Positions 6,954 to 42,177 of a stretch of 42,177 nucleotides of DNA are shown here, piece after piece. Each line of letters begins with the position of its first letter. The first letter of the stretch is position 1. The stretch covers positions 1 to 42,177 of the IMG/VR virus record IMGVR_UViG_3300036801_000076, one strand, 5' to 3'. Under the pieces are notes generated by a model. The model had not been told where the DNA came from. It did no database searches and saw only the letters and a program-made list of their open reading frames with translations. The stretch is from a virus. The position numbers and the translations under genes were made by a program.

Positions 6954-9035
6954 ATGGGAGATAAGTCCCACCTGGGCTTCGGCGACTTCTCGCTGGAGAA
7001 CAGCCTGATGCACTCGGCCGTCGCTGCCCCGCCGAAGGCGGACTTCAGCGGCTGGGCGACGAAGGCCAACCTGAAGTGCTCGGACGGCCGGACCATCCTG
7101 CCGGACGCGTTCGCGCATCAGGACAAGGCCAAGGTGCCTCTGGTCTGGGCGCACGGCCACGACGAGCCGTCGAACGTGCTCGGGCACGCCGTCCTGGAGT
7201 CGAAGGACGGCAGCGTCTACGCCTACGGGTACTTCAACGACACCGACTCGGCGCAGAACGCCAAGACGCTGGTGGAGCACGGCGACATCAGCTACCTGTC
7301 GATCTTCGCAAATCAGCTGGTCGAGAAGGCCAAGCAGGTCTCGCACGGCATCATCCGGGAGCTCTCGCTGGTCCTGGCCGGTGCCAACCCCGGCGCGATG
7401 ATCGACAACATCGAGCTGCAGCACTCCGACGGCGACATGGTCACCCTCGAGGACGAGGCCGTGATCTACACCGGCGAGAAGCTGAGCCACGGGGACGGCT
7501 CGGCCAAGAAGGACGACGACAAGGCCGACGAGGACGGCCCGTCCGTCCAGGACGTCTACGACGAGATGTCCCCGGAGCAGAAGGAGGTCGTCCACTACAT
7601 GGTGGGGGCCGCCATCGACAGCAACGCCACCACCGACGATCCCGACAAGACGGCCGCGCACTCGGCGACCGGCCCTGACGACAAGGAGACCCGCACCATG
7701 AGCAGGAACGTCTTCGAGAGCCAGCAGCCGGGCGGCGTCTCCGGCAAGGAGAAGCAGCGGCTCACGCTCTCCCACGAGGACGCCCAGGGCATCATGGCCG
7801 ATGCCGTCCGCACCGGCTCCCTCAAGGAGGCCGTCCAGAAGTACGCCCTGCAGCACGGAATCGACAACATCGATCTCCTGTTCCCGGACGCGCGGACGGT
7901 CACCGACCAGCCCGATCTCGATTCGCGACGGATGGCCTGGGTCGTCTCGGTCATCAACGGGACGCGGCACAGCCCGTTCTCCCGCATCAAGTCCCTGGTC
8001 GCGGACATCACCCACGACGAGGCGCGGGCCAAGGGCTACATCAAGGGCTCCTTCAAGAAGGAGGAGTGGGTCTCGCTGGCCAAGCGGATCACCACGCCGA
8101 CCACGGTCTACAAGAAGCAGAAGCTCGATCGCGACGACATCGTCGACATCGTCGACCTCGACGTCGTGGCCTGGCTCAAGGCCGAGATGCGCCTCATGCT
8201 GGACGAGGAGATCGCGCGCGCGATCCTGATCGGCGACGGCCGCGAGGTCGACGACGAGGACAAGATCCGCGACCCCGCAGGGGCCAACGACGGTGCGGGC
8301 ATCCGCTCGATCGTCAACGATCACGACCTGTACGCACCGAAGATCGACCTCGTGGTCCCGGATGACGCGTCCGGCAACAACACCATCATCGACGCGATCG
8401 TGTCGAACATGTCCCTCTACAAGGGCACCGGGCAGCCGACGTTCTACACGACGCAGGCGTTCCTGACCAAGCTGCTGCTCACACGCGACGGCATGAATCG
8501 GCGCATGTACCGCACGGCGTCGGACCTGGCCTCCGAGCTGGGCGTCTCCAACATCGTCGCGGTCGAGGTCATGGAGGACGAGGTCGACCTCGTCGGCGTC
8601 ATCGTCAACTTGTCGGACTACACGTGCGGCGCCGACCAGGGCGGCGACGTGACGATGTTCGACGACTTCGACATCGACTACAACCAGTACAAGTACCTGA
8701 TCGAGGGCCGCATGTCCGGCGCGCTGACCAAGATCCGGTCGGCGCTCGTGCTGCGCAAGGTCGCGTCCGGGGCCACGCTGAAGGAGCCGGTGGAGCCCAC
8801 CTTCGATCCGGCCACGGGCGAGATCACGGTCCCGACCACGGTGGGCGTGTCGTACCGCGACGAGGACGGCAACGTCGTCTCCGGCTCGACGGTCACCGTG
8901 CCCGCGGGCGAGCAGCAGACGATCACCGCGGTGCCGACGGCGGGGAACTACTTCGCCACCAGCGCCGACTCGTCGTGGACGTTCACCCACCGCGGCGCCC
9001 CGACCGGCCGCGACGCCACCGCGCCCGGCGCCTAG
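6954..9035 (+). CDS. Prohead protease-major capsid protein fusion
   Basis: A 693-residue polyprotein. Residues about 1-160 match a U35-type prohead protease: HGHDEPSNVLGHA (candidate H67 or H69) and GDISYLSIFA (candidate S116), plus the IRELSLVLAGANPGA segment typical of these serine proteases. An acidic linker (about 160-245) leads to an HK97-fold major capsid protein (about 249-605; IDNIDLLFPDAR, later GRMSGALTKIRSALVLRKV near its end). The last 85 residues look like an extra Ig-like beta domain (TVGVSYRDEDGNVVSGSTV), perhaps a surface decoration. The protease would trim the head proteins and itself during maturation. M249 at 7698 could serve as a separate capsid start. Confidence 0.85.
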   Translation: MGDKSHLGFGDFSLENSLMHSAVAAPPKADFSGWATKANLKCSDGRTILPDAFAHQDKAKVPLVWAHGHDEPSNVLGHAVLESKDGSVYAYGYFNDTDSAQNAKTLVEHGDISYLSIFANQLVEKAKQVSHGIIRELSLVLAGANPGAMIDNIELQHSDGDMVTLEDEAVIYTGEKLSHGDGSAKKDDDKADEDGPSVQDVYDEMSPEQKEVVHYMVGAAIDSNATTDDPDKTAAHSATGPDDKETRTMSRNVFESQQPGGVSGKEKQRLTLSHEDAQGIMADAVRTGSLKEAVQKYALQHGIDNIDLLFPDARTVTDQPDLDSRRMAWVVSVINGTRHSPFSRIKSLVADITHDEARAKGYIKGSFKKEEWVSLAKRITTPTTVYKKQKLDRDDIVDIVDLDVVAWLKAEMRLMLDEEIARAILIGDGREVDDEDKIRDPAGANDGAGIRSIVNDHDLYAPKIDLVVPDDASGNNTIIDAIVSNMSLYKGTGQPTFYTTQAFLTKLLLTRDGMNRRMYRTASDLASELGVSNIVAVEVMEDEVDLVGVIVNLSDYTCGADQGGDVTMFDDFDIDYNQYKYLIEGRMSGALTKIRSALVLRKVASGATLKEPVEPTFDPATGEITVPTTVGVSYRDEDGNVVSGSTVTVPAGEQQTITAVPTAGNYFATSADSSWTFTHRGAPTGRDATAPGA
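7683..7700 (+). promoter_or_regulatory. Possible internal ribosome site and start for separate capsid protein
   Basis: AAGGAG at 7683-7688, followed nine bases later by an in-frame ATG (7698), lies inside the protease-capsid gene just where the capsid domain begins (MSRNVFESQQ). This would allow a stand-alone capsid subunit to be made in excess of the fused protease, as needed in particles with hundreds of capsid copies. The match may be chance, since GAG/AAG codons often create such sites. Confidence 0.4.
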
Positions 9036-23220: not shown

Positions 23221-23299
23221 GCTGTTCCTGGTCTACGTCGCGCTACTGACCTCGTTCGCCATCCTGCTGTATCTCATAGGGACTAACTTCGCAGCCTAA
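23219..23299 (+). other. Hydrophobic reading frame without a standard start
   Basis: Directly after the holin stop, in the +1 frame, the bases read KLFLVYVALLTSFAILLYLI and on to GTNFAA and a stop, a convincing membrane segment. Back to the previous in-frame stop at 23138 there is no ATG, GTG or TTG. Upstream this frame codes an arginine-rich run typical of an unused frame. A rare CTG start (23222), a frameshift from the holin, or a decayed gene are possible. The last bases are shared with the first repeated cassette element. Confidence 0.25.
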
Positions 23300-23322
23300 A
23301 CACGGGCTTATATGAAACCCCC
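23288..23322 (+). promoter_or_regulatory. Repeated cassette element, copy A
   Basis: TTCGCAG, then 14 bases including AAACACGGGC, then TATATG and AAACCCCC. The TCGCAG-N14-TATATG spacing is identical in five copies, each ahead of a small gene. The GGG and CCC flanking TTATATGAA can pair into a short hairpin. Likely a promoter or leader element. Confidence 0.55.
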
Positions 23323-23336
23323 TATGAAGGAGACCC

Positions 23337-23618
23337 ATGTTCCTCAATCCGAAACCGAAGACTCATCTTCAGGTCGAGATCGACAACGTCCTGTTCCAGA
23401 TGGCAGCTCATCCTGCCGACTCCGACGAATACGCCGTGATGCTGGATCGGGTGAAGACGCTCAAGAAGCTGCAGTCAGAAGACAAGACGCAGCGGCCGAG
23501 CGCCGACACCATGATCCTCGCCACGACGAACATCCTCGGAATCGCGATGATCCTCCGTCACGAACAGCTCAACGTCATCACGTCCAAAGCCCTGAGCTTC
23601 GTGATCAAACCGAGATAA
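23337..23618 (+). CDS. Conserved small phage protein, likely membrane-associated
   Basis: A 93-residue protein: MFLNPKPKTHLQVEIDNVLF, a helical section (DEYAVMLDRVKTLKKLQ), and a more hydrophobic end (MILATTNILGIAMILRHEQL, then NVITSKALSFVIKPR). The ILGIAMILRHE...NVITSKALSFV ending is one I recognise as common among actinophages with no known function. It is expressed as its own cassette: repeated element copy A upstream, AAGGAGACCC ribosome site, and a strong terminator downstream. Confidence 0.7.
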   Translation: MFLNPKPKTHLQVEIDNVLFQMAAHPADSDEYAVMLDRVKTLKKLQSEDKTQRPSADTMILATTNILGIAMILRHEQLNVITSKALSFVIKPR

Positions 23619-23693: not shown

Positions 23694-23728
23694 CTCGCAG
23701 CGGAAACACGGACTTATATGAAACCCCC
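23694..23728 (+). promoter_or_regulatory. Repeated cassette element, copy B
   Basis: CTCGCAG, 14 bases (CGGAAACACGGACT), TATATG, AAACCCCC. It lies just after a T-rich stretch and 20 bases before the next gene start. The ATG inside TATATG happens to be in frame with the gene here, but is not preceded by a ribosome site. Confidence 0.6.
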
Positions 23729-23747: not shown

Positions 23748-23960
23748 ATGCGCAACCGTCATTTTCAGGTGAAGCTCGTCAAGGACCAACCGTCCGATCA
23801 GATCAGCGCAACCGAAGCCCCCAAGAACAGCCCCGAGACAATCGTCATCGAGAGCGTTCGCGGAGTGGCTCCGTATGCGCTCGGCCTGTTCGTGGCCGCC
23901 AAGTCCGTCAACCTGCTTTACCGAGTGGCACTGCACACCGCCGAAACCAAGATCAAGTGA
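23748..23960 (+). CDS. Small cassette protein, unknown
   Basis: A 70-residue protein, MRNRHFQVKLVKDQPSDQIS, with a moderately hydrophobic second half (VRGVAPYALGLFVAAKSVNL). The pattern IVIESVRG...LFVAAKSVNLLYRV resembles the IVVGVGAW...LVAAKARPITDRI part of the 26848 gene, so the two may be distant relatives. AAAGGATTGCC precedes the ATG. It is a single-gene cassette with its own upstream element and terminator. Confidence 0.6.
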   Translation: MRNRHFQVKLVKDQPSDQISATEAPKNSPETIVIESVRGVAPYALGLFVAAKSVNLLYRVALHTAETKIK

Positions 23961-23998: not shown

Positions 23999-24032
23999 CT
24001 CGCAGAGAAAACAAGGGGTTATATGAAACCCC
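23999..24032 (+). promoter_or_regulatory. Repeated cassette element, copy C
   Basis: CTCGCAG, 14 bases (AGAAAACAAGGGGT), TATATG, AAACCCC. Here GGGGTT and AACCCC form a perfect six-base-pair hairpin with ATATGA as loop, supporting an RNA-level leader structure as well as a promoter role. Confidence 0.6.
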
Positions 24033-24050: not shown

Positions 24051-24269
24051 ATGCACCACGAGATCGACAACCCCGAGAACGAGAACTTCAACACGAAGCG
24101 TTCGAAGCTGAAGAAGATCGTCGACGTTGCCGGTACGACCGCCATCTTCGGAGGCGGCGCCGCCATCACCGTCGCTTCGATCTACTTCGGCCTTCGCACG
24201 CAGAAGATGAACCTCGAGACCGCCAAGCTGACCCTCGAGGCCGCCAAGGCCAACCTCCCCAGCGAGTAG
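24051..24269 (+). CDS. Small membrane protein with C-terminal helix
   Basis: A 72-residue protein: a polar N-terminus, one membrane segment (DVAGTTAIFGGGAAITVASIYF fits residues 25-46 in part), then an amphipathic helix (MNLETAKLTLEAAKANLPSE). No family recognised. Encoded as an isolated cassette with AAGGAGCACC ribosome site, repeated element upstream and terminator downstream. Confidence 0.65.
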   Translation: MHHEIDNPENENFNTKRSKLKKIVDVAGTTAIFGGGAAITVASIYFGLRTQKMNLETAKLTLEAAKANLPSE

Positions 24270-24312: not shown

Positions 24313-24339
24313 CTCGCAGAGAATACACGCTTTTATATG
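24313..24339 (+). promoter_or_regulatory. Repeated cassette element, copy D
   Basis: CTCGCAG, 14 bases (AGAATACACGCTTT), TATATG. The usual AAACCCC block is replaced by the arm of a strong hairpin with T-tract (next entry). It precedes a multi-gene unit rather than a single gene. Confidence 0.55.
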
Positions 24340-24373
24340 AGAACCGAATTCCGGTTCTCTTTTCTTTTTTCTC
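24339..24373 (+). terminator. Leader terminator / possible attenuator
   Basis: GAGAACCG pairs perfectly with CGGTTCTC around a five-base loop and is followed by TTTTCTTTTTT. It lies between repeated element copy D and the first gene of the 24395-26723 unit. If transcription begins at the element, this hairpin would stop most transcripts before the genes unless relieved. Confidence 0.65.
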
Positions 24374-24945: not shown

Positions 24946-25048
24946 GAAGTATGGCCTCGGCTCCTTCCTGTTCGACAGCCTGATGACCGTATTCACCTGC
25001 GGTTTCTGGCTGATCTGGATCTTCGTCCGCGAGATGAGGGCCCGATGA
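24938..25048 (+). CDS. Single-pass membrane peptide
   Basis: A 36-residue peptide with a membrane segment (SLMTVFTCGFWLIWIFV) between two basic ends (MRRKYG and REMRAR). AGGAGTGAAAC precedes the ATG. It overlaps both neighbours, which supports it as a real coupled gene. Function unknown; possibly a small membrane-potential or holin-like modulator. Confidence 0.5.
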   Translation: MRRKYGLGSFLFDSLMTVFTCGFWLIWIFVREMRAR

Positions 25049-25848
25049 TGGACCTGCACGGCATCCGTGATGTGACGGAGAAGTTCGTGAAGGACAACGC
25101 GACGACGCTGCTCACGGCCGGTGGCGTCGTCGGCACCGTGGGGACAGCAATCCTCTCCTGGCGTTCCGGATTCCGATCCGCGGAGAAGCTTCAGGAAGAG
25201 ATGCAGGTGGCCCGACGTCAGATCATCACCGAGGAAGATCGGGATCCCGCGATCGTGGAGCTTCCGCTCTCGACGAAGATCAGGACCGTCTGGCCCGAGA
25301 TCCTTCCGCCGTTGGCCTCCGGCTCGATCACGGTCTTCAGCATCGTGTTCGCCAACCGGATGTCGGCTCAGAAGGCGGCCGCCCTGGCCGCGGCCTATGG
25401 GCTCACGCAGGACCGGCTGAAGGAGTACCAGGACAAGGTCGCCACCAAGCTGACCGGTCCGAAGCAGCAGGCCATCGTCGACGAGGTGGCGCAGGATCGG
25501 GTCCGCGGCAATCCGCCTGATGCCCAGGTGCTGATCCTGAGCGGAAACGACGTCCTGTGCTACGACCAGTACACCGGGCGGTACTTCCAGAGCTCGGTGG
25601 AGAAGATCCGCCGGGCCGAGAACGAGGTCAACGCCGATCTGTTCCACCACCAGTACGCGAGCGCCAGCTCGTTCTACGACAAGGTCGGCCTCGCTCCGAC
25701 CACGCTGACCGACATGTTCGGCTGGAACCAGGGGACGACCGGCCCCATGGAGCTGCGCTTCTCGACGGTGATGGCAACGGACGAGAAGCCGTGCATCGCC
25801 ATCGACTTCGTGGTCCCGCCTCAGCCCGACTACAACCAGCTGTACTAG
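25045..25848 (+). CDS. DUF6353-like phage membrane protein, copy 1
   Basis: A 267-residue protein. An N-terminal membrane segment (TTLLTAGGVVGTVGTAILSW, about 20-39) and a second around residues 86-104 (LPPLASGSITVFSIVFA) are followed by NRMSAQKAAALAAAYGLTQD, a helix, and a C-terminal beta-rich domain with FYDKVGLAPTTLTDMFGWN and IDFVVPPQPDYNQLY. The layout matches the uncharacterised phage family I know as DUF6353. A longer relative is encoded at 27979. The tandem ATGATG leaves the first residue uncertain. Confidence 0.65.
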   Translation: MMDLHGIRDVTEKFVKDNATTLLTAGGVVGTVGTAILSWRSGFRSAEKLQEEMQVARRQIITEEDRDPAIVELPLSTKIRTVWPEILPPLASGSITVFSIVFANRMSAQKAAALAAAYGLTQDRLKEYQDKVATKLTGPKQQAIVDEVAQDRVRGNPPDAQVLILSGNDVLCYDQYTGRYFQSSVEKIRRAENEVNADLFHHQYASASSFYDKVGLAPTTLTDMFGWNQGTTGPMELRFSTVMATDEKPCIAIDFVVPPQPDYNQLY

Positions 25849-26793: not shown

Positions 26794-26828
26794 CTCGCAG
26801 GAAAAACAAGGGCTTATATGAAACCCCC
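26794..26828 (+). promoter_or_regulatory. Repeated cassette element, copy E
   Basis: CTCGCAG, 14 bases (GAAAAACAAGGGCT), TATATG, AAACCCCC. It is nearly identical to copies A-C though 2.8 kb away, and again stands just before a ribosome site and a small gene. Confidence 0.6.
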
Positions 26829-26847: not shown

Positions 26848-27108
26848 ATGCAGATCCCCACCACTAAGACCGAGATCGCCAAGAAGGCTCTTCAGATGAT
26901 CGTCGCCGCGAAGACGGCGAGCATTGTTCAGGATCAGGTCACCGAGCGCACAGAGCTCGACGAAGACAACATCGTTGTCGGCGTCGGAGCCTGGGCTGTC
27001 GGCCACCTGGTTGCTGCCAAGGCTCGTCCCATCACGGACCGCATCGTCGAAGACACCGTCGAGGCGTACCAGTCCTGGCGCGAGAACCGCAAGAAGTCCG
27101 CCGAGTAG
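26848..27108 (+). CDS. Small cassette protein, unknown
   Basis: An 86-residue protein: MQIPTTKTEIAKKALQMIVA, then an acidic middle, then VGVGAWAVGHLVAAKARPIT and a helical tail (VEAYQSWRENRKKSAE). The central motif resembles the 23748 protein, suggesting an old duplication of the cassette. The ATG at 26848 has AAAAGGAGTACC upstream; the longer frame from TATATG at 26818 is rejected as a start because that element precedes other genes out of frame. Confidence 0.6.
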   Translation: MQIPTTKTEIAKKALQMIVAAKTASIVQDQVTERTELDEDNIVVGVGAWAVGHLVAAKARPITDRIVEDTVEAYQSWRENRKKSAE

Positions 27109-27978: not shown

Positions 27979-28896
27979 ATGAAGTTCGTTCCGAAGGCGG
28001 TGAGCCGAAGGGTCGGGCAGCAGTTGCTGTCGACCCGAGAGGTCTCGCCATCGTTGCTGTTCGGAGTCGGGGTGTTCGGCATGGTCGGCGCCACCGTGCT
28101 CGCCTGCCGGGCCACGCTGAAGGTCGAGCCGGTCATCGAGACCGCTCAGAACGACCTGGCCGTGGCGCAGGAGATGACGGCGGAGCCCGAGTACACCACC
28201 CAGGATCACCGCGAGACCGTCGGCCGCGTCTACGTCAAGTCGGGCCTCGCTCTGGCTCGCCTGTACGCCCCGTCCGTTCTTCTCGGCGCCGCATCGATCG
28301 GCTGCCTGACCAAGTCCCACAACATCCTCATGCAGCGCAACGCCGCGCTGACCGCCGCCTACATCGCCGTCGACCAGGCGTTCAAGGAGTACCGCGAGCG
28401 GGTCGTCGACAAGTACGGCGAGGACCAGGATCGGGAGTTCCGGTACGAGTCCGAGGTGGTGGAGATCATCACCCCCTCGGGAAAACTCAACACCGAGCTC
28501 CGCGTCGCTCCCGGCGCGGCCTCGCAGTATGCGCGCTTCTTCGACGAATACTCGAAGGAGTGGTCGAAGGAACCCGAGTACAACCTCGTGTTCCTGCGCT
28601 GCCAGCAGCAGTGGGCGAACGACATGCTCCACATGCGCGGCCACATGTTCCTGAACGAGATCTACGACCGGCTGGGTCTCGAGCGTTCGCAAGCTGGGTC
28701 CGTTGTCGGATGGAAGATCTCCGACGACGGCGACAACTTCATCGACTTCGGGATCTACACCGACCGCAGCATGTCGGCCACCCGCGACTTCGTCAACGGC
28801 CGGGAGGGGTCGGTCCTTCTCGACTTCAACGTCGACGGTCTCATCTGGGACAAGATCGATGAGAAGGGCAAGGAGCGCATCAGATGGCAGAGCTGA
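27979..28896 (+). CDS. DUF6353-like phage membrane protein, copy 2
   Basis: A 305-residue protein with two membrane segments (about 26-46, SLLFGVGVFGMVGATVLAC; and 98-114, LYAPSVLLGAASIGCL). It continues with HNILMQRNAALTAAYIAVDQ, an acidic helix, then a beta-rich C-terminus with EIYDRLGLERSQAGSVVGWK. The order and wording parallel copy 1 at 25045 (ALTAAY..., YDKVGL...GWN). The ribosome site is AGAGGCACAAGC. It overlaps the following membrane protein gene by 13 bases; the pair may act together at the host membrane. Confidence 0.68.
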   Translation: MKFVPKAVSRRVGQQLLSTREVSPSLLFGVGVFGMVGATVLACRATLKVEPVIETAQNDLAVAQEMTAEPEYTTQDHRETVGRVYVKSGLALARLYAPSVLLGAASIGCLTKSHNILMQRNAALTAAYIAVDQAFKEYRERVVDKYGEDQDREFRYESEVVEIITPSGKLNTELRVAPGAASQYARFFDEYSKEWSKEPEYNLVFLRCQQQWANDMLHMRGHMFLNEIYDRLGLERSQAGSVVGWKISDDGDNFIDFGIYTDRSMSATRDFVNGREGSVLLDFNVDGLIWDKIDEKGKERIRWQS

Positions 28897-30183: not shown

Positions 30184-33100
30184 GTGGACTTCTATCAGAT
30201 CCGTGAAAAGGAGCTGAAATCCGGGAAGATCGAGCTGTATCCGGACTTCACCGTGGGGCGATCGGCGGATCTGATGATCCGCGGAGGCAAGTTCTACGCG
30301 ATCTGGGACGAAGCGAAAGGGCTGTGGTCGCAGGATCCACTGGATGTGCGGAATCTGGTGGATCAGGATCTGAGAGAACAGGCTGCGGCCAGGTTCGACC
30401 AGACCAAGCAATACTGCCAGATCAGAACCCTGGGGTCATACGGCAACGGCGCCTGGAAGGAGTTCAAGAAGTACGAGCGGGAGACCCCGGACGTCTGGTA
30501 CCCGCTCAACACCAAGGTGATATTTGCCAACACCGAGGTGAAGAAGACGGACTACGCCAGTCGCAGGCTGCCGTATTCGCTCGAAGACGGTGATATCTCG
30601 GCGTGGGACGAGCTGGTGTCACTGCTCTACGATCCGGAGGAGCGGCACAAGTTCGAGTGGGCAATCGGCTCGATCGTGGCGGGGGACTCGAAGAAGATTC
30701 AGAAGTTCCTCGTGTTCTACGGGCAGTCGGGGATAGGGAAGTCGACGATCCTCAGGGTGATCGAGCAGATGTTCGATGGGTACGACGCCCACTTCGACGG
30801 CAAGGCTCTCGGATCGAGCAACGGGCAATTCGCCACTTCGGTGTTCAAGAACCACCCACTGGTCGCCATTCAGCACGACGGCGACCTGAGCCGGATCGAG
30901 GACAACACCCGGCTGAACTCGATCATCGCGCACGAGCCGATGTCGATCAACGAGAAGTACAAGACGGACTACACCGCATCGATCGATGCGATGCTGTTCA
31001 TGGCGTCGAACCAACCGGTGAAGATCTCCGATTCGAAGTCGGGGATCCTGCGTCGTCTGATCGACGTACGCCCTACGGGGCTGACGTTCACACCGAAGAA
31101 GTACGACGTCCTGATGGGCAAGATCTCGTTTGAGCTCGGGGCGATCGCGTATCACTGCCTGCAGGTCTATCTGACCGCGGGCCCTAAGTATTACAACGAC
31201 TACCGGCCCACCGAGATGATGTTGCAGACGGATCCGTTCTACAACTTCATCGAGGACCACTTCGACATATTCACCCATCAGCAGTACGTCACCCTGAGGC
31301 AGGCCTGGGACCTGTACAAGGAGTGGTGCGAGCGTACGGGGGTGGACAAACCGCGTCCGATGTACCGGATCCGGGCGGACCTGGAATCATATTTTCAGCA
31401 CTTCCACGAGCGGATGTTCGTGGACGGGGAGAACCTTCGCAGCGTCTACGAGGGATTCATCGGCGACAAGTTCAAGGCGCCGAAGGATGGCAACGGCGCA
31501 TACATCCTCGTGCTGGAGGAGACCGACTCGCTGCTCGACGAGGAGATGACGCACCAGCCGGCCCAGCTGGCCAAGCCGGATGGGACTCCGGCACGCAAAT
31601 GGTCCAACGTCCGGACCAAGCTGTTGGACATCAACTCCTCAGAGTTGCACTGGCTGAGGATGCCGCCGAACCACATCGTCATAGACTTCGACCTGAAGGA
31701 CGTCAATGGGACGAAGGCGTTGGAGAGGAACCTCGAGGCTGCCAGCCACTGGCCGAGCTCGTACGCCGAGATCAGCAAGAGCGGGGACGGGATCCATCTG
31801 CACTACGTGTACGAGGGAGACACGACCCAGCTGGCGTCGTCATATTCGTCAGGCATCGAGGTGAAGACGTTTCACGAGGACGCTTCATTGCGCAGGAGGT
31901 TGTCACGATGCAACGCGATACCGATCGCCAGCATCAGCAGCGGCCTGCCGCTAAAGAAAAAGGAGAAGATGCTCAAGTCCAAGACGATCAACACCGAGAA
32001 GGGGCTCAGGGAACTGATCGGGCGCAACATGCGCAAGGAGATCCACCCTGGTACAAAGCCCTCGATCGACTTCATCAAGAAGATCCTGGACGACGCGTAC
32101 GAGTCGGGTATCGCGTACGACGTAAGCGATCTGAGGCCGAGGATGATCGCCTTCGCCAACAACTCCACGAATCAGGCGGCCAATTCTCTCAAGATCGTAA
32201 GAGAGATGAAGTGGGCCTCCGAAACCCCCGGGGAGGATTTTCCGGCAGATGTTTCCGTGCCGGTGGACGACGAGCGTCTGGCCTTCTTCGACGTCGAGGT
32301 GTACAAGAACCTCTTCGTAATCTGCTGGAAGTTCCAAGGGGCGGACGAAGTCGTTCGGATGATCAATCCGTCACCCGCCGAAATCCAGCAGCTGTTCAAG
32401 CTCAAACTGGTGGGTTTCTACAACCGCCGGTACGACAACCACATCGTCTACGCCGCCTCGATGGGGACAACGACGGAAGAGCTGTTTCGGCTCAGCGCCA
32501 AGCTGATCGAGGGGAACAGGGGTGCGGCATTCGGCGCCGCGTACAACCTGTCCTATGCGGACATCTGGGACTTCTCGTCAGAGAAGATGGGCTTGAAGAA
32601 GTTCGAGATCAAGCTCGGCATTCTCCACATGGAACTCGATCTGCCCTGGGACGAGCCCGTGGACGAGAAGGACTGGGAGCGCGTGGTGGAGTATTGCTGC
32701 AACGACGTACGCGCCACCGAGGCGGTCTTCGAGGATAGGAAGGGCGACTTCGTCGCTCGCCAGATCCTCGCAGAGCTCTCCGGGCTGAGCGTCAACGACT
32801 CCACCCAGGCCCACACGGCCAAGATCATATTCGGGGACGACAAGCGCCCGCAGAAGAAGTTCGTCTACACGGACCTCTCGACGGAGTTCCCCGGATACAA
32901 GTTCGAGCTCGGCAAGAGCTACTACCAAGGCGAAGAGCCTGGCGAAGGCGGATACGTCTACGCCGAGCCCGGCATGTACGAGAACGTCGTGGTCATGGAT
33001 GTCATATCCATGCACCCCACCAGCATCGAGATCCTCAATCTATTCGGTCCATACACTCAAAATTTCTCGGATCTCAAGACCGCGCGTGTGCACATCAAAC

Positions 33101-33954
33101 ACGGCGACTTCGACGAAGCCCGGCGTATGCTGGACGGTCGACTGGCGCCTTATTTGGAAGATGAGTCCACCGCGGAGCAGCTGGCGTATGCGCTGAAGAT
33201 CGTGGTCAACACGGTCTACGGCCTGACCTCGGCCAAGTTCGACAACGCGTTCCGCGACATCCGCAACGTGGACAACATCGCGGCCAAGCGCGGTGCGCTG
33301 TTCATGATCGACCTGAAGAACTACCTCCAAGACGAAGGGTACCAGGTCATCCACATCAAGACGGACTCGGTGAAGGTGCCGAGTGGGGATCCCATGATCA
33401 TCGCCAAGATCCTGGCGTTCGGCAAGATGTGGGGCTACGACTTCGAGCACGAGGTGACGTACGACAAGTTCGTCCTCGTGAACGACGCCGTGTACGTGGC
33501 CGGTCTGAAGAAGATCCCGTGGGACGAGAAGTTCCCTGGCTACGACTGGAGCGCCACGGGAGCGCAGTTCGCTCACCCCTACGTGTTCAAGACCCTGTTC
33601 TCGGGAGAGGAGATCGAGTTCAAGGACATGTGCGAGGCGCGGAGTGTCCTCAAGGGCACGATGTATCTCGACATGCGCGGTTCGGATCTGGATCAGCCGG
33701 ACCACACCAAGATGCGCCACGTCGGAAAGACCGGGCTGTTCGTGCCGGTTCTGGAGGGCGGCGGCGTACTGTACCGCGTGAACGACGACAAGTATTACGC
33801 GGTGGCAGGAACGAAGGGTCATCTATGGATGGAGGCGCATATCGCCGAAGGCCTGGATGATGTCAAGATCGACATGTCATATTTCGAGAAACTGCAGAAG
33901 GAAGCGGTCGAGACGATCGACAACTTCGGCGACTTCCACGAGTTCGTCCGATAA
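30184..33954 (+). CDS. SF3 helicase - AEP primase - family B DNA polymerase fusion
   Basis: A 1256-residue replication protein. SF3/D5-like helicase (about 130-400): Walker A GQSGIGKST (180-188), acidic Walker B at QHDGD (230-234), sensor MASNQP (273-278). Archaeo-eukaryotic primase-like domain (about 430-590): IDFDLKD with D501/D503, SKSGDGIHLH (531-540), GIEVKTF with E559. Family B polymerase (about 695-1256): exonuclease motifs FDVEVY (D703, E705), NRRYD (747-751), YCCND (837-841); polymerase motif A DVISMHPTS (D939), motif B KIVVNTVYG (1005-1013), motif C IKTDS (1058-1062), where Lys1059 replaces the first Asp of the usual DTDS. The GTG start follows AAAGGAGGTGTA. It should unwind, prime, copy and proofread phage DNA. 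Confidence 0.88.
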   Translation: MDFYQIREKELKSGKIELYPDFTVGRSADLMIRGGKFYAIWDEAKGLWSQDPLDVRNLVDQDLREQAAARFDQTKQYCQIRTLGSYGNGAWKEFKKYERETPDVWYPLNTKVIFANTEVKKTDYASRRLPYSLEDGDISAWDELVSLLYDPEERHKFEWAIGSIVAGDSKKIQKFLVFYGQSGIGKSTILRVIEQMFDGYDAHFDGKALGSSNGQFATSVFKNHPLVAIQHDGDLSRIEDNTRLNSIIAHEPMSINEKYKTDYTASIDAMLFMASNQPVKISDSKSGILRRLIDVRPTGLTFTPKKYDVLMGKISFELGAIAYHCLQVYLTAGPKYYNDYRPTEMMLQTDPFYNFIEDHFDIFTHQQYVTLRQAWDLYKEWCERTGVDKPRPMYRIRADLESYFQHFHERMFVDGENLRSVYEGFIGDKFKAPKDGNGAYILVLEETDSLLDEEMTHQPAQLAKPDGTPARKWSNVRTKLLDINSSELHWLRMPPNHIVIDFDLKDVNGTKALERNLEAASHWPSSYAEISKSGDGIHLHYVYEGDTTQLASSYSSGIEVKTFHEDASLRRRLSRCNAIPIASISSGLPLKKKEKMLKSKTINTEKGLRELIGRNMRKEIHPGTKPSIDFIKKILDDAYESGIAYDVSDLRPRMIAFANNSTNQAANSLKIVREMKWASETPGEDFPADVSVPVDDERLAFFDVEVYKNLFVICWKFQGADEVVRMINPSPAEIQQLFKLKLVGFYNRRYDNHIVYAASMGTTTEELFRLSAKLIEGNRGAAFGAAYNLSYADIWDFSSEKMGLKKFEIKLGILHMELDLPWDEPVDEKDWERVVEYCCNDVRATEAVFEDRKGDFVARQILAELSGLSVNDSTQAHTAKIIFGDDKRPQKKFVYTDLSTEFPGYKFELGKSYYQGEEPGEGGYVYAEPGMYENVVVMDVISMHPTSIEILNLFGPYTQNFSDLKTARVHIKHGDFDEARRMLDGRLAPYLEDESTAEQLAYALKIVVNTVYGLTSAKFDNAFRDIRNVDNIAAKRGALFMIDLKNYLQDEGYQVIHIKTDSVKVPSGDPMIIAKILAFGKMWGYDFEHEVTYDKFVLVNDAVYVAGLKKIPWDEKFPGYDWSATGAQFAHPYVFKTLFSGEEIEFKDMCEARSVLKGTMYLDMRGSDLDQPDHTKMRHVGKTGLFVPVLEGGGVLYRVNDDKYYAVAGTKGHLWMEAHIAEGLDDVKIDMSYFEKLQKEAVETIDNFGDFHEFVR

Positions 33955-37486: not shown

Positions 37487-37512
37487 CTCGTCAAAAACCA
37501 CATTTCGAGCCT

Positions 37513-37642
37513 AAAAAGTTTTTCAAAGCGTGTACGTAATATACTGTTTATGTCAGATAACCGGTATATTCTATACTTCCTTTACGCGCGTGGGGAAAAG
37601 TATAAGAATAGTATATTACCTATGACGTTTGAAAAACTTTTT
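37513..37642. repeat. AT-rich inverted repeat region
   Basis: Outer arms AAAAAGTTTTTCAAA (37513-37527) and TTTGAAAAACTTTTT (37628-37642) are perfect 15-base reverse complements. Inner arms GTAATATACT (37536-37545) and AGTATATTAC (37610-37619) are also perfect. The enclosed 64 bases also contain imperfect matches (GGTATATTCTATACTTCC against GGAAAAGTATAAGAATAG). The region is far richer in A and T than the rest of the window and holds no gene. Options are a replication origin, a protein-binding regulatory block, or the edge of an insertion. Confidence 0.75.
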
Positions 37643-38180: not shown

Positions 38181-38183
38181 AAA

Positions 38184-38195
38184 AGTATATTACCT
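38184..38195. repeat. Second copy of AGTATATTACCT
   Basis: The 12-base sequence AGTATATTACCT at 37610-37621 recurs exactly here, just past the stop of the NUMOD4 gene, so the gene is bracketed by the same motif in the same direction. The following bases hold a short direct repeat (TCGCGGAT twice within 20 bases) and are AT-rich up to the next ribosome site. Confidence 0.6.
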
Positions 38196-38271
38196 CGCGG
38201 ATAATTCGCGGATTTTTATAGAAGAGATAGGACATTTCCTAAATTTTTTCCGTCCTGGGAAAGGAGGACTG

Positions 38272-38589
38272 ATGACCGAGGCTGCTTTTCAGGGAAAGCT
38301 CACCCGTAAGCTGAAGCGGATGTTTCCCGGTTGTGTGGTCCTCAAGAACGATCCGCAGTACCAGCAGGGGATTCTCGATCTCACGCTTTTGTGGGGTGAA
38401 TGGTGGGCCATGCTCGAGGTCAAGGCCTCGCGTAGTGCCAGCCATCGTCCCAATCAGGACTTCTACGTCGAGCAGCTCGACAACATGAGCTTCGCGGCGT
38501 TCATCTATCCCGAGAACGAGGAGGAGGTGTTGCTTGCGCTTCAACAGGCATTCGCATCTCGAGGGTCAACACGCCTTTCTGTCGCCTAG
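38272..38589 (+). CDS. PD-(D/E)XK nuclease (VRR-NUC-like)
   Basis: A 105-residue nuclease of the compact VRR-NUC/Holliday-resolvase type: GILDLTLLWGEWWAMLEVKA, with D36 and the pair E49-x-K51 as metal-binding residues, and QDFYVEQLDNM after. Such enzymes cut branched or flap DNA. AAGGAGG lies four bases before the ATG at 38272. It overlaps the next nuclease gene by 56 bases in a different frame. Confidence 0.78.
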   Translation: MTEAAFQGKLTRKLKRMFPGCVVLKNDPQYQQGILDLTLLWGEWWAMLEVKASRSASHRPNQDFYVEQLDNMSFAAFIYPENEEEVLLALQQAFASRGSTRLSVA

Positions 38590-39094
38590 TACGTACCACT
38601 GGATCAACTACGACGAGGAGAAGCTTGCCTTTCGCTACAAGACGTTGCGAGCTGCGTTGGAGGGGATGGAACATCATCGTTACGCGGCCATCGCAATTGA
38701 AGAGCGTGAGATCCAGGACGACGAGACCACAACCGTGGGTCTGTACATCAACCAGTGCATTCAGTACCGGATGTCACCGGAGATGGTGCTGTACTACTCG
38801 CCGAATGCCTTCGGCACGGTAGACGCCATCGCTTATCGTTACCGGCGTCTGCGGATCTCCGATCTCAAGACGGGGGTCACTCGAGTGTCCGAACATCAGC
38901 TGGAGGTCTATGCTGCTCTGTTCTGTCTCGAGTATGGGATCGACCCGTTCTCCATGCGGGAGATCGAGCTCCGGATCTATCAGGATGACGTGTGCCGACC
39001 GTACGTCGGAGATCCTGGAGTGATCCGGGGCATCATGGACAAGATCGTTCGGTTCGATGATCTGCTCAATCAGCTCAGAGAGGAGGTGTCGTAG
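38534..39094 (+). CDS. Cas4/RecB-family exonuclease
   Basis: A 186-residue nuclease of the PD-(D/E)XK class: an N-terminal HxxLEGQHAFLSPSTYHWI segment, then VDAIAYRYRRLRISDLKTG, with D97, D110 and K112, and QLEVYAALF containing the following Gln/Tyr (Q122, Y126). These are the motifs of phage exonucleases related to Cas4 and RecB. It would resect DNA ends for recombination. The TTG at 38534 has GGAGG six bases upstream. Its stop shares a base with the next GTG. It has no Cys cluster, so it lacks the Fe-S centre of true Cas4. Confidence 0.75.
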   Translation: MRFNRHSHLEGQHAFLSPSTYHWINYDEEKLAFRYKTLRAALEGMEHHRYAAIAIEEREIQDDETTTVGLYINQCIQYRMSPEMVLYYSPNAFGTVDAIAYRYRRLRISDLKTGVTRVSEHQLEVYAALFCLEYGIDPFSMREIELRIYQDDVCRPYVGDPGVIRGIMDKIVRFDDLLNQLREEVS

Positions 39095-41838
39095 TGGTCG
39101 TTGTGAAGGCAGAAGATCATCTGAAGCATTACGGCACCAAGCGGCATTCCGGTCGCTATCCCTGGGGTTCGGGCAAGGATCCCATGCAGAGTGGAAGCGA
39201 CTTCCTCGCCGACATCGAATCCATGCGGAAGTCCGGTCTGTCGGACACCAAGATCGCCGAAGGCCTGGGCATCACCACGACACAGCTCCGAGCCCGCAAG
39301 TCGATCGCTCTGGCCGAGACGAAGCAGGCGAACATCCTCATGGCCCAGCGCCTGAAGGACAAGGGGCTGTCGAACGTCGCCATCGGACGACAGATGGGAC
39401 GCAACGAGTCCTACGTGCGTTCGCTGCTGGCTCCCGGAGAGAAGGACAAGGCCGACCAACTTCGCAGTATCGCCGACATGCTCAAGCGGCAGGTCGACGA
39501 GAAGAGCTACATCGACATCGGCGCAGGAACCGAGCTTGCGCTTCCGCTGAGTGACAATCCTTCGGCTACGATCGGCGTGGCGGCCACCAAGTTCCGGACT
39601 GCTGTGGCCATGCTGAAGGAAGAGGGATACATGACCCATGAGGTCCTGATCCCACAGCTCGGCACAAAGGACATGACGAGGGTTCTGGTTCTGGCCAAGC
39701 CTGGAACCACTCAGCGCGATGCCTGGATGAACAGGCACAACATCGCCCTGATCAACGAGCGTTCGGAAGACCATGGGCGTGAAGGCTCCTGGATCGAGCC
39801 TCGTCCGCCTCTTTCCATGTCCTCCAAGCGAATTGCGATTCGCTATGGAAACGAAGGCGGTTCGGACAAGGACGGAATGATCGAGATCCGTCCTGGTGCC
39901 AAGGATCTGGACATGGGCTCTGCCCGCTACGCGCAGGTCCGGATTCTGGTCGACGGCACGCACTACCTCAAGGGCATGGCCGTCTACAACGACAAGCTTC
40001 CGCCCGGTACGGACATCGTCTTCAACACGAACAAGAGCAAGTCCGGTAGCAAGCTCGACGTGATGAAGGAAGTGAATCGCACCAAGGAGGGAAACGTCGA
40101 TCTGGAGAACCCCTTCGGAGCGGCGATCAAGCCTGGTGGCCAACGTGGCCATCTGAACATCCTTCGCGAAGAGGGCGACTGGGACCAGTGGAAGAACAAG
40201 CTGCCTTCCCAGATGCTCTCCAAGCAGAGTCCCGATTTGATCAAGCGTCAGCTCGATCGTACGTTCGAACGGCGTAAGCAGGAATTCGATGAGATCTCGT
40301 CTCTGACCAATCCTGCGGTCAAGCGGAAGCTCCTGAAGAGCTTCTCTGACGCTACGGACTCTTCGTCCGTGCATCTCGAAGCGGCCAACATGCCCCATCA
40401 GGCGACGAAGGTCCTGTTGCCGATTCCGTCGCTGAAGGAGAACGAGGTGTTCGCTCCCTCGTTCGAGAACGGAACGCGTCTGGCTCTGGTCCGATTCCCG
40501 CATGGTGGGACGTTCGAGATTCCCGATGTCGTCGTCAACAACAAGAATCGCGAAGCCCGCTCGATCATGGGGCACAACGCGACAGATGCGATCGGAATCC
40601 ATCCCAAGGTCGCAGAACGTCTGTCCGGAGCCGATTTCGACGGCGATCACGTCATCGCGATCCCGAACAACCGAGGCGAAGTCAAGAGCACTCCTGCTCT
40701 GGAAGGTCTGAAAGGGTTCGATCCCAAGCACTCGTTCCCGCCGTATGACGGAATGAAGACCGTCGATGGTGGAGTGTGGAGCGAGAAGCTGAAGAAGCCC
40801 GTCTATGGTGAGGAAGGCCCTCGGCCCGTCTTCATGCAGCGTCAGATGGGTGATGTTTCGAACCTGATCACCGACATGACCATCAAGGGCGCCTCTACTC
40901 CGGAGCTCGCTCGTGCAGTACGTCATTCCATGGTGGTCATCGATTCGGAGAAGCACAGTCTGGACATCAAGTCCTCGGCTCGTGACAACAACATCTCTGC
41001 GCTCAAGGTGAAGTATCAGGGAAGTGCTCGATCTGGGGCATCGACGCTTCTGAGTAAGGCTGGCGCAGAAGAACGAGTCAATGTCCGTCGTCAGAGGCGG
41101 GCCAATGAGGGCGGTCCGATCGATCCCGCTACGGGCAAGAAGATGTTCGTCGATACCGGTGCCACATACGTGGATCGGAAGACGGGCAAGACCGTGCTCA
41201 AGACCTTCAAGACCGAGAGACTGGCGGTTACGGACAACGCCCACGATCTCTCTTCTGGTACGCCTCAGGAAGAGCTCTACGCCGATCACTCCAATCGGCT
41301 CAAGGCCTTGGCCAACACCGCTCGTAAAGAGATGATTACGGTCAAGTCGATCCCCTACTCCGAATCATCCAAGCGGATCTACGCAGAAGAGGTCACCTCC
41401 CTCGACCGAAAGCTGACCGCTGCCAAGAAGAACGCCCCCCTCGAACGTCAAGCTCAGGTCATCGGGAACAAGGTGTACCATCAGAAGGTGCGTGCCAATC
41501 CTGACATGGGTGACGACGAGAAGAGGAAGATCAAGAATCAAGCGTTGGCGGAAGCCCGTGTGAGAGTCGGTGCTCACAAGGATCCGATCGAGATCGAAGG
41601 TCGTGAGTGGGAAGCGATCCAAGCAGGCGCTATCTCCAATCACAAGCTCGAAGAGATCCTGGACAATGGCAAGATCGAGCAGATCAAGCAACTGGCCATG
41701 CCGTCTACCAAGAAGCTGATGTCGCCCACCAACACAGCCAGGGCCAAGCAGATGCTGGATGCTGGGTTCACACAGGCTGAGGTGGCCAAGCAACTGGGCG
41801 TGTCACTGACCACGCTCAAGACTGGACTCGAGGAATGA
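39094..41838 (+). CDS. Predicted single-chain two-barrel RNA polymerase with HTH domains
   Basis: A 914-residue protein. Residues 9-28 carry the HYGTKRHSGRYPWGSG motif. HTH-like segments follow at about 48-70 (DTKIAEGLGITTTQLRARKS) and 92-112. Residues 290-325 (YLKGMAVYNDKLPPGTDIVF) resemble the barrel of bacterial RNA polymerase beta subunit (xxKGxI...DGTPVDIVLN...S). Residues 500-523 (IHPKVAERLSGADFDGDHV) match the beta' catalytic barrel (LHPLVCTAFNADFDGDQM) with D514, D516, D518 as Mg ligands. A third HTH segment ends the chain (892-911, FTQAEVAKQLGVSLTTLKTG). Both barrels in one chain is the design of YonO and crAss-phage polymerases. K293 fits one of the two catalytic lysines; I cannot place the other. 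Confidence 0.7.
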   Translation: MVVVKAEDHLKHYGTKRHSGRYPWGSGKDPMQSGSDFLADIESMRKSGLSDTKIAEGLGITTTQLRARKSIALAETKQANILMAQRLKDKGLSNVAIGRQMGRNESYVRSLLAPGEKDKADQLRSIADMLKRQVDEKSYIDIGAGTELALPLSDNPSATIGVAATKFRTAVAMLKEEGYMTHEVLIPQLGTKDMTRVLVLAKPGTTQRDAWMNRHNIALINERSEDHGREGSWIEPRPPLSMSSKRIAIRYGNEGGSDKDGMIEIRPGAKDLDMGSARYAQVRILVDGTHYLKGMAVYNDKLPPGTDIVFNTNKSKSGSKLDVMKEVNRTKEGNVDLENPFGAAIKPGGQRGHLNILREEGDWDQWKNKLPSQMLSKQSPDLIKRQLDRTFERRKQEFDEISSLTNPAVKRKLLKSFSDATDSSSVHLEAANMPHQATKVLLPIPSLKENEVFAPSFENGTRLALVRFPHGGTFEIPDVVVNNKNREARSIMGHNATDAIGIHPKVAERLSGADFDGDHVIAIPNNRGEVKSTPALEGLKGFDPKHSFPPYDGMKTVDGGVWSEKLKKPVYGEEGPRPVFMQRQMGDVSNLITDMTIKGASTPELARAVRHSMVVIDSEKHSLDIKSSARDNNISALKVKYQGSARSGASTLLSKAGAEERVNVRRQRRANEGGPIDPATGKKMFVDTGATYVDRKTGKTVLKTFKTERLAVTDNAHDLSSGTPQEELYADHSNRLKALANTARKEMITVKSIPYSESSKRIYAEEVTSLDRKLTAAKKNAPLERQAQVIGNKVYHQKVRANPDMGDDEKRKIKNQALAEARVRVGAHKDPIEIEGREWEAIQAGAISNHKLEEILDNGKIEQIKQLAMPSTKKLMSPTNTARAKQMLDAGFTQAEVAKQLGVSLTTLKTGLEE

Positions 41839-41839
41839 G

Positions 41840-42091
41840 GTGAACAACACAGAGAGCTACATGCTCACGACAGTGGACAATCCATGGGATCCGTTCACGC
41901 AGTTCGATCAGTGGTACACATGGGACGTTGCGAATGGGTACCACTCCTCTGCACTACTGGCACGAGTTACTAGAACTTCTGATGAATTGTCGGAGGCCGA
42001 CCAGCACTTCGCGATTCAGGTAGCGATCGACGAGATCGTCCAGGAGAACGTGTCAGGAATGCATCGAAAAGTTTTGGGGAACGCAATCTAA
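41840..42091 (+). CDS. Conserved small phage protein
   Basis: An 83-residue protein: NNTESYMLTTVDNPWDPFTQ, FDQWYTWDVANGYHSSALLA, RVTRTSDELSEADQHFAIQV. The pattern 'NNTxSYMLTTVDNPxxPFTQFDxWYxxD...GYHxxxLLARxxRTSDELSEAD' is one of the most widely conserved small proteins of phages of Gram-positive bacteria. No function is known. The GTG begins two bases after the previous stop. An acidic, aromatic surface suggests a protein-binding role. Confidence 0.72.
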   Translation: MNNTESYMLTTVDNPWDPFTQFDQWYTWDVANGYHSSALLARVTRTSDELSEADQHFAIQVAIDEIVQENVSGMHRKVLGNAI

Positions 42092-42141
42092 ATCAGAAAC
42101 ACGAAACAAGAAAGCAAAAACCAAAACGAAAAAGGTAGAGG

Positions 42142-42169
42142 GGGGGGTGCCCGAAATTTTGCACCCCCC
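42142..42169. terminator. Strong GC hairpin at right end
   Basis: GGGGGGTGC and GCACCCCCC form a perfect nine-base-pair stem around CCGAAATTTT. It follows the last gene after about 50 bases of A-rich sequence and ends eight bases from the edge of the window. There is no T-tract after it. It may terminate the long rightward transcript or mark the packaging end. Confidence 0.6.
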
Positions 42170-42177
42170 TGTTGCAT

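Follow-up and report, generated by a model that had tools for sequence, protein, structure and literature searches.

A phage single-chain RNA polymerase with helix-turn-helix domains at both ends and a candidate early-promoter element

How a one-chain relative of the cellular RNA polymerase (RNAP) may recognize promoters without a sigma factor is a question raised by a gene near the right end of the IMG/VR record IMGVR_UViG_3300036801_000076. The window analyzed here is this entire record of 42,177 bases, in which every assigned gene lies on the + strand. The open reading frame (ORF) at 39094-41838 (+) starts with GTG and continues unbroken for 914 amino acids. Its product is very probably an RNA polymerase, with catalysis itself predicted from a structural model and from conserved residues. 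We further propose, at roughly even chances, that it is a DNA-dependent enzyme that finds early promoters with its own helix-turn-helix (HTH) domains and is probably delivered in the virion.

The family of this protein is not new but already in databases as PHROG 4291. Residues 4-913, nearly the whole chain, match its profile with 1220 bits. The database label is "RNA-dependent RNA polymerase" (RdRP), a function assigned only via remote homology. By tblastn, 250 of 50,697 phage records matched the window protein, 249 of them at ≥80% query coverage, with 37-54% identity where full length. These include phages of Arthrobacter, Gordonia, Streptomyces, Lactococcus, Rhodococcus, Curtobacterium, Microbacterium, Faecalibacterium and others. 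The records name the relatives "HTH DNA-binding domain protein", "hypothetical protein" or "RNA-dependent RNA polymerase", and the contig89 record has "tail fiber protein". With a profile from a 13-member alignment (A1), at least 511 stretches encoding relatives were found in viral contigs and 137 in 84,980 genomes of bacteria and archaea. Of the 80 genome loci listed, many belong to Lachnospiraceae, Oscillospiraceae and other Clostridia and are presumably prophages. The single window protein as query against the viral contigs had returned one stretch and no relative, where the alignment A1 succeeded; 72,556 plasmid records gave no match. The original prediction, made from the sequence of the window, of a single-chain two-barrel polymerase with HTH domains at both ends stands, with the correction that the protein is a member of a large known family often recorded as a helix-turn-helix DNA-binding protein.

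For the polymerase core, we aligned the window protein with 72 relatives (A2, 73 sequences, identity to the window down to 43%) and built an AlphaFold2 model from this alignment (mean pLDDT 87.3, pTM 0.79). The parts of the core are as follows.

39094-41838, + strand: single-chain two-barrel RNA polymerase, 914 amino acids, PHROG 4291 (profile match, model, Z 11.7-15.7)
39808-40083, + strand: beta-type double-psi beta-barrel (DPBB-B) core, residues ~239-330, with Q281, R283, K293 and G294 (invariant columns of A2 and structural alignment range; limits approximate)
40390-40668, + strand: beta'-type (DPBB-A) core, residues ~433-525 (weak match to the YonO family phrog_8308; superposition of residues 427-648 on cellular largest subunits with Z ~10)
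40627-40647, + strand: catalytic loop GADFDGD, residues 512-518, with the Asp triad (invariant in 73 sequences)
40825-40884, + strand: putative bridge-helix equivalent, residues 578-597 (one long helix in the model)
40897-41019, + strand: putative trigger-loop equivalent, residues 602-642, with candidate K620 (K620 and H621 invariant in A2)

A Foldseek search of the PDB with the model ranked QDE-1 first (E 1.3e-9), and all 22 chains at E ≤ 0.001 were QDE-1, RDR2 or P74-26 gp62. In pairwise comparison by VIA-align, the model superposed on maize RDR2 (7w84) with Z 15.7, a root-mean-square deviation (rmsd) of 4.3 and 375 aligned residues, on QDE-1 (2j7n) with Z 15.2 (rmsd 4.3, 364 aligned), on P74-26 gp62 with Z 13.9 (rmsd 4.7, 360 aligned) and on P23-45 gp64 with Z 11.7 (rmsd 4.4, 355 aligned). 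The superposition, of the two-barrel core, spans residues ~237-750; cellular largest subunits came next with Z ~10 over residues 427-648. Matches in BFVD were phage relatives, including the P23-45 protein at E 1.5e-5. The structure prediction proposed as a check on the original claim has thereby been carried out, and the single-chain two-barrel plan known from YonO, QDE-1 and phage polymerases is borne out by the fold as well as by residue conservation.

The two diagnostic regions that had been read from the sequence are present in the expected order. The beta-type stretch occupies residues 279-325 (YAQVRILV..HYLKGMAVY..PPGTDIVFN), in which Q281, R283, K293, G294, P303, G305 and D307 are invariant in A2. 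It is followed by SGADFDGD of the beta'-type loop at residues 511-518, with D514, F515, D516, G517 and D518 invariant, so that the DxDxD triad is complete in all 73 sequences. In the Thermus RNAP beta subunit, Lys838 and Lys846 contact the initiating nucleotide, and their equivalents in RDR2 are Gln582 and Lys589 (PMC8713982). Aligned by motif and order, Q281 and K293 would be this Gln/Lys pair, set a few residues further apart, and one of the two lysines would then be a glutamine here, as in RDR2. This would account for the earlier remark that an expected lysine is not in its usual place: the invariant basic residue of the second barrel is K293, and the second position would be held by Q281. 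In the candidate bridge helix, M585, G586, N590, L591, I592, D594 and M595 are invariant in A2. The trigger-loop His position is a Lys in RDR2, QDE-1 and phi14:2 (PMC8713982), and K620 is, by motif and order, a candidate for this lysine.

By sequence, the Pfam RdRP family PF05183 was matched by 7 of the 13 A1 members at E ≤0.05 (best E 1.1e-4), and the window protein itself gave no PF05183 match at E ≤1. Searches of PDB sequences with the window protein and with the A2 profile returned only HTH and designed-repeat matches and no RNAP chain.

A catalytically dead structural or DNA-binding protein, as the labels "HTH DNA-binding" or, in contig89, "tail fiber protein" might suggest, is hardly credible, given that neither the three aspartates nor any other residue of the active site varies among the 73 sequences, whose identity goes down to 43%. 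Only slightly less improbable, and still very unlikely, is an RNA-templated polymerase acting in phage RNA metabolism. It would agree with the PHROG 4291 and RefSeq labels and with RDR2 and QDE-1 as the closest solved folds. These two are enzymes of eukaryotic RNA silencing and, with Z ~15, the best structural matches; QDE-1, however, also accepts DNA templates according to PDB titles, the phage enzymes of the same fold described in PMC5467207 and PMC10770324 are DNA-dependent, and DNA-binding HTH domains at both ends would have no obvious use on RNA.

The HTH domains are the only domains that Pfam sees in the window protein.

39202-39309, + strand: N-terminal HTH 1, residues ~37-72 (model helices 37-46, 51-57 and 62-89; phrog_3855 match over 37-69, E 9.9e-6)
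39340-39429, + strand: N-terminal HTH 2, residues ~83-112 (phrog_7061 over 78-112, E 1.6e-6; model helices 94-101 and 105-112)
41725-41832, + strand: C-terminal HTH, residues 878-913 (HTH_23, 3.6e-6, above the Pfam cut-off)

HTH 2 is also matched by Pfam HTH_38 at residues 85-106 (4.6e-4, below the cut-off). The profiles and the model helices together support the proposed arrangement of two N-terminal domains and one at the C-terminus. As the range matched by QDE-1 and RDR2 starts at ~237, the N-terminal domains lie outside it. All 13 A1 members matched HTH_23 and Sigma70_r4_2 somewhere in the chain at E ≤0.05. With sigma-70 region 4 profiles the window protein stayed below the cut-off (18.0 vs 24.1 bits and 17.8 vs 25.7), and Sigma70_r4_2 is stronger in some relatives, with a best value of 2.5e-9.

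Recognition of promoters by these domains, without sigma, may be made concrete, short of proof, by an element in the early region. A single motif at the RNAP operon, TATAATAGAAGGGATAGAA, searched with ≤6 mismatches, gave at most one good match per genome scanned, which led to the search for a wider element. In the gaps between genes of the Streptomyces phages RosaAsantewaa and Bilo, a stretch like TCGCAAGATTTACATGGCTTATAATGAGACCCCTAC is repeated before early genes. A matrix drawn from 11 of these sites found five sites in the window, all on the + strand, with scores of 16-27 (next best 9.6), and more sites in ReqiPepy6, contig89 and Count.

23290-23321, + strand: promoter-like element 1 of the early region (matrix and pattern; ribosome-binding site (RBS) and ATG follow, ATG at 23337)
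23696-23727, + strand: promoter-like element 2 (matrix and pattern; ATG at 23748)
24001-24032, + strand: promoter-like element 3 (matrix and pattern; ATG at 24051)
24315-24346, + strand: promoter-like element 4 (matrix and pattern; terminator-like hairpin directly 3')
26796-26827, + strand: promoter-like element 5 (matrix and pattern; ATG at 26848)
38196-38220, + strand: RNAP-operon copy of the element, one mismatch (chance expectation at one mismatch 0.61; counterpart at the same place in relatives)

Four of the five early elements are followed by an RBS and an ATG, 47-52 nt from where the element starts. For this reason some mechanically listed ORF starts (23312, 23718, 24023 and 26818) use an ATG within the element, and the true starts are likely 23337 (other frame), 23748, 24051 (other frame) and 26848. 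At element 4, a strong terminator-like hairpin at 24339-24359 is followed by T-rich sequence; this is perhaps a promoter with immediate termination, yielding a short RNA or serving as a control point. The copy before the RNAP operon is weak when taken alone because of its chance expectation.

The consensus is CGCR-N7-CA-N5-YWWWAT-R, present in several copies on one strand before early genes. When motifs were sought de novo in intergenic DNA, the element ranked first in RosaAsantewaa, 1706, P078, FP_oengus, TieDye and ReqiPepy6, with log-likelihood gains of 136-285 vs 77-86 in one shuffled set each. Its form drifts, from TATAATGAGACCCC with CGCA in actinophages to TTTTACATACCCTATAATGA in P078, GTTTTACATA.ACTATAGTAGAAAGAAGG in 1706 and CGCGAAAAATTCAG..TGCTTTATGGAAGG in FP_oengus, and the spacing from CA to the hexamer is five in each of them. 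An exact pattern with wrong spacing, CGCA...TATATGAAACCCC, had no match in the window.

In the window, the consensus has 5 exact matches against a shuffle mean of 0.04, and none of 100 dinucleotide shuffles reached 5. Over ~633 kb from seven phages and 16 prophage regions, the same degenerate pattern matched 88 times on the gene strand and never on the opposite one; the reversed pattern gave 0 and block shuffles about 0.9. The pattern was drawn with knowledge of sites from every one of the seven phages and from several of the 16 prophage regions, and these counts are biased to that extent. At least one match was present in 13 of the 16 prophage regions, and 30 kb of SPbeta had none. The scan replaced a crude mask-and-EM (expectation-maximization) run on the 16 prophage regions, in which only L320 and L322 returned the element and several were no better than the shuffle. 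1706 and P078, whose elements are without the CGCR part, were for that reason left out of the scan, and for Petito, Inked, Serenabean and Count the analysis covered parts of the genome other than the early region. In MT835485, which had not been used in drawing the pattern, 12 elements lie on the strand of the DNA polymerase and 0 on the opposite one.

The element and the polymerase occur together in both directions of search. Among 36 IMG/VR records selected for the RNAP gene from 80 loci, including all 18 of ≥30 kb, ACANGNNNTATAATGAGACCCC was found within three mismatches in 24, and in 16 of the 18 long ones. These sites comprise 94 on the RNAP strand and 0 on the opposite strand, with 1 for the reversed-pattern control. 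Conversely, the exact pattern was found in at least 120 stretches; among the 80 loci listed are 39 element-bearing records of ≥30 kb, 32 of which encode the RNAP (5 of the 39 also belong to the RNAP-selected set).

If the host read this element, features of a sigma-A promoter should accompany it. A TTGACA at 15-19 nt with ≥5/6 matches occurred at 1 of 117 aligned element sites, and a TGn extension likewise at 1 of 117, so that a -35 or TGn together with TAnnnT does not characterize the element. The -10 signature, defined as A at position 2 and T at position 6 (TAnnnT), was absent from all 5 window sites and all 11 sites of FP_oengus and present at 14 of 38 prophage sites. Scanned for sigma-70 promoters, the right half of the window gave 3 promoter-like sites, below the shuffle mean of 5.0. 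The simplest reader of the element would be the RNAP itself.

Since the element also precedes the RNAP's own operon, the first enzyme molecules would have to come from outside, which points to the virion. Such delivery of a first RNAP is described for P23-45 gp96 (PMC10770324). EU081845, the record first deposited for Lactococcus phage 1706, labels orf75, the RNAP, as "structural protein" without the "putative" given to terminase, portal, capsid and two tail genes, and this pattern, as far as a deposit label goes, suggests that orf75 was detected in particles. The ReqiPepy6 record cites the label, and the later RefSeq record of 1706 calls the product an RdRP.

Put together, the two barrels would form the active site, with D514, D516 and D518 holding magnesium and Q281 and K293 serving the incoming nucleotide. 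The HTH domains at both ends would replace a sigma factor and find the early promoters of the phage, each a ~32-nt CGCR-N7-CA-N5-(TATAAT-like)-GARAC about 50 bases before an early start codon. A variant of the element would also precede the VRR-Nuc/Cas4/RNAP operon, and RNAP injected from the virion would start early transcription. The fold, the catalytic residues, the HTH domains and the element with its distribution rest on the analysis itself; DNA as template, reading of the element by the RNAP and delivery in the virion are the parts that we infer. Extended to the lineage, a widespread phage group of actinobacteria and Firmicutes would, as infection begins, take over from host RNAP and sigma with a virion-borne RNAP, HTH domains at both ends and a strand-specific promoter CGCR-N7-CA-N5-YWWWAT-R that drifts with the enzyme across two host phyla; this we hold more tentatively, at somewhat below even chances.

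Several observations weigh against this proposal, and they concern the form of the element, its distribution, its hexamer and the label from 1706. The RosaAsantewaa and Bilo matrix missed the variants of 1706, P078 and FP_oengus, the former two have no CGCR part, and the window's RNAP-operon copy departs from the pattern at one position and is overlapped by a hairpin. The strict pattern lies upstream of the RNAP at 54 of 80 genome loci and at only 11 of 65 IMG/VR loci, though never on the other strand. Two RNAP-encoding records of ≥30 kb (G024 and G030) show no element match, and in 7 of the 39 element-bearing records no RNAP was seen. Of these, five break off inside the gene for a primase-polymerase or no more than ~6 kb beyond it; the other two (G042 and G064) have neither of the two genes. 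MT835485 has the primase-polymerase and its 12 elements and no RNAP was seen; this scaffold also lacks the late genes and the VRR/Cas4 genes sought and is incomplete by gene content.

30184-33954, + strand: primase-DNA polymerase fusion, 1256 amino acids, phrog_4210 (co-inherited with the RNAP)

This gene was found in 33 of the 39 element-bearing records vs 32 for the RNAP. At ≥80% coverage it is in 252 phage records vs 249 for the RNAP, nearly equal numbers by which the two define one phage lineage. Since both are co-inherited, the link between element and RNAP may reflect common descent, and inheritance within the lineage is the main alternative account of the association.

As to the hexamer, the -10 signature is present at all sites in Pepy6 (15/15), contig89 (5/5), 1706 (12/12) and P078 (9/9) and at part of those in RosaAsantewaa (2/6), Bilo (3/5) and TieDye (6/11, five sites having been entered one base out of register). 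Because the hexamer fits a sigma-A -10 in several phages, host RNAP could read the element there. Host RNAP together with a phage regulator might thus read it as a -10-type promoter, and the RNAP made from the operon would transcribe late genes across cos, as YonO of SPbeta transcribes the late operon (PMC5467207). In the window and most relatives inspected, the RNAP gene indeed lies at the right end beside the genome terminus, directly before the late genes in a circular map, and in FP_oengus ~6 kb before the terminase gene. The window itself seems to be an almost entire genome of a cos phage: in seven relatives the left end (CC..ATTTTTCC.CCGGGGG..TTTT) resembles positions 1-45, and 42140-42177 resemble their G-tract/C-tract end except that the final ~9-10 bases are missing, which are the 9-base 3' cos overhang in the ReqiPepy6 annotation. 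We consider a late role as in SPbeta distinctly less probable than the early one, although every hexamer fits sigma-A in four phages, because the element has neither a -35 nor an extended -10 and, in the window and FP_oengus, no valid -10. Moreover, no shared late promoter was seen, the shared left-end sequence resembling part of a cos site by eye, and the label "structural protein" of 1706 orf75 would be unexpected unless carried over.

That label is a record label only, and it is also given to orf62 and orf71 of 1706, which belong to the replication region outside the late genes (L182, EU081845 49000-55597, and L019). An early-gene RNAP might read the element and yet be absent from the virion, its first copies being made from a promoter readable by the host, followed by self-amplification. 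The different downstream part of the RNAP-operon element (TATAATAGAAGGGATAGAA vs TATAATGAGACCCC), with a perfect -10 in Pepy6 and Serenabean, would suit this course, which leaves the orf75 label unexplained and which we regard as unlikely.

The genes beside the RNAP gene in the window are as follows.

38272-38589, + strand: VRR-Nuc nuclease, opening the presumed operon with an ATG at 38272 (translation; synteny with annotated relatives)
38534-39094, + strand: Cas4/RecB-like exonuclease, the gene before the RNAP (synteny with annotated relatives)
41840-42091, + strand: small protein of 83 amino acids after the RNAP, phrog_4303 (crude ORF test; AlphaFold2 pLDDT 91)

The window copy of VRR-Nuc had no Pfam match, and that of the Cas4/RecB-like gene matched only DUF2800. 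The PHROG 4291 actinophage loci inspected have the same order as the window, VRR-Nuc, Cas4/RecB-type exonuclease, RNAP, small protein and genome end. There is no difference in kind between the window protein and its family; in Lactococcus phages other genes, an endolysin or a short gene, directly precede the RNAP. By the crude ORF test, the small protein was recognized 3' of the RNAP in 110 of the 130 loci of relatives whose sequence extended far enough, and it is a possible partner of the polymerase. It has a near-invariant TTVDNP...W...D motif, and among 144 PDB chains compared its fold found no useful match (best Z 3.8).

Two AT-rich gaps upstream, at 37487-37628 and 38181-38271 (GC 0.36 and 0.31), both contain GTATATTACC. 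Other repeated words are present at the matching gaps in relatives (TTAATACACGGT in Petito, TTAATACCCTATA in ReqiPepy6 and GTGCCATAATT in Count), and the repeats in the window are possibly iterons of a replication origin. Elsewhere in the window, two genes of phrog_2152, a family without an assigned function, lie at 25045-25848 and 27979-28896 in one phage, and 6954-9035 combines protease and major capsid in one protein of 693 amino acids, with a head maturation protease profile over 28-637 and a major head protein profile over 347-586.

How does the window enzyme relate to characterized polymerases? The RNAP phi14:2 gp66 of a crAss-like phage is carried in the virion. It is likewise a single-chain two-barrel enzyme (PMC10770324, PMC8713982); its solved chain was not among the structural matches listed, and crAss-like models appeared only at E 0.14 in BFVD. 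P23-45 gp64 and P74-26 gp62, non-virion RNAPs, share the phage single-chain two-barrel fold (Z 11.7 and 13.9), and gp64 transcribes early and some middle genes (PMC10770324). Their solved chains have 591-593 residues vs 914 in the window protein, PDB searches gave no sequence match to them, and their promoter motifs differ from the window element.

YonO of SPbeta is also a phage single-chain two-barrel RNAP with an Asp triad and serves late genes, unlike the early role proposed here (PMC5467207). It belongs to phrog_8308 (1220 bits), separate from PHROG 4291, and that profile matches the window RNAP only at residues 433-525 (E 0.0015) and not over its full length; aligning the A2 profile with YonO alone by hhalign gave only a 19-column chance match. 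YonO had no Pfam match at E ≤0.1 and hence no HTH. The window RNAP would work like YonO but stands outside the YonO family as PHROGs draws it, and it is set apart from the characterized single-chain enzymes by DNA-binding domains at both ends and a matching early-promoter candidate. In the open-access literature we found no description of the activity of PHROG 4291, of this domain reading or of the element, the search for the element being broad and liable to miss reports.

For YonO, the promoter sequence and the need for other factors were still to be determined according to its authors (PMC5467207). In the present family, the DNA-binding domains are part of the polypeptide and the candidate promoter occurs in several copies per genome, so that a single in vitro assay can address both. 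The family is large and occurs in culturable phages whose hosts, Streptomyces, Lactococcus and Arthrobacter, are harmless. If the proposal is true, it would re-label a gene now recorded as "HTH DNA-binding protein" or "RNA-dependent RNA polymerase", identify the early genes in the phages that carry it and provide a compact orthogonal transcription system, and it would place sigma-free promoter finding within the superfamily of the cellular RNA polymerase.

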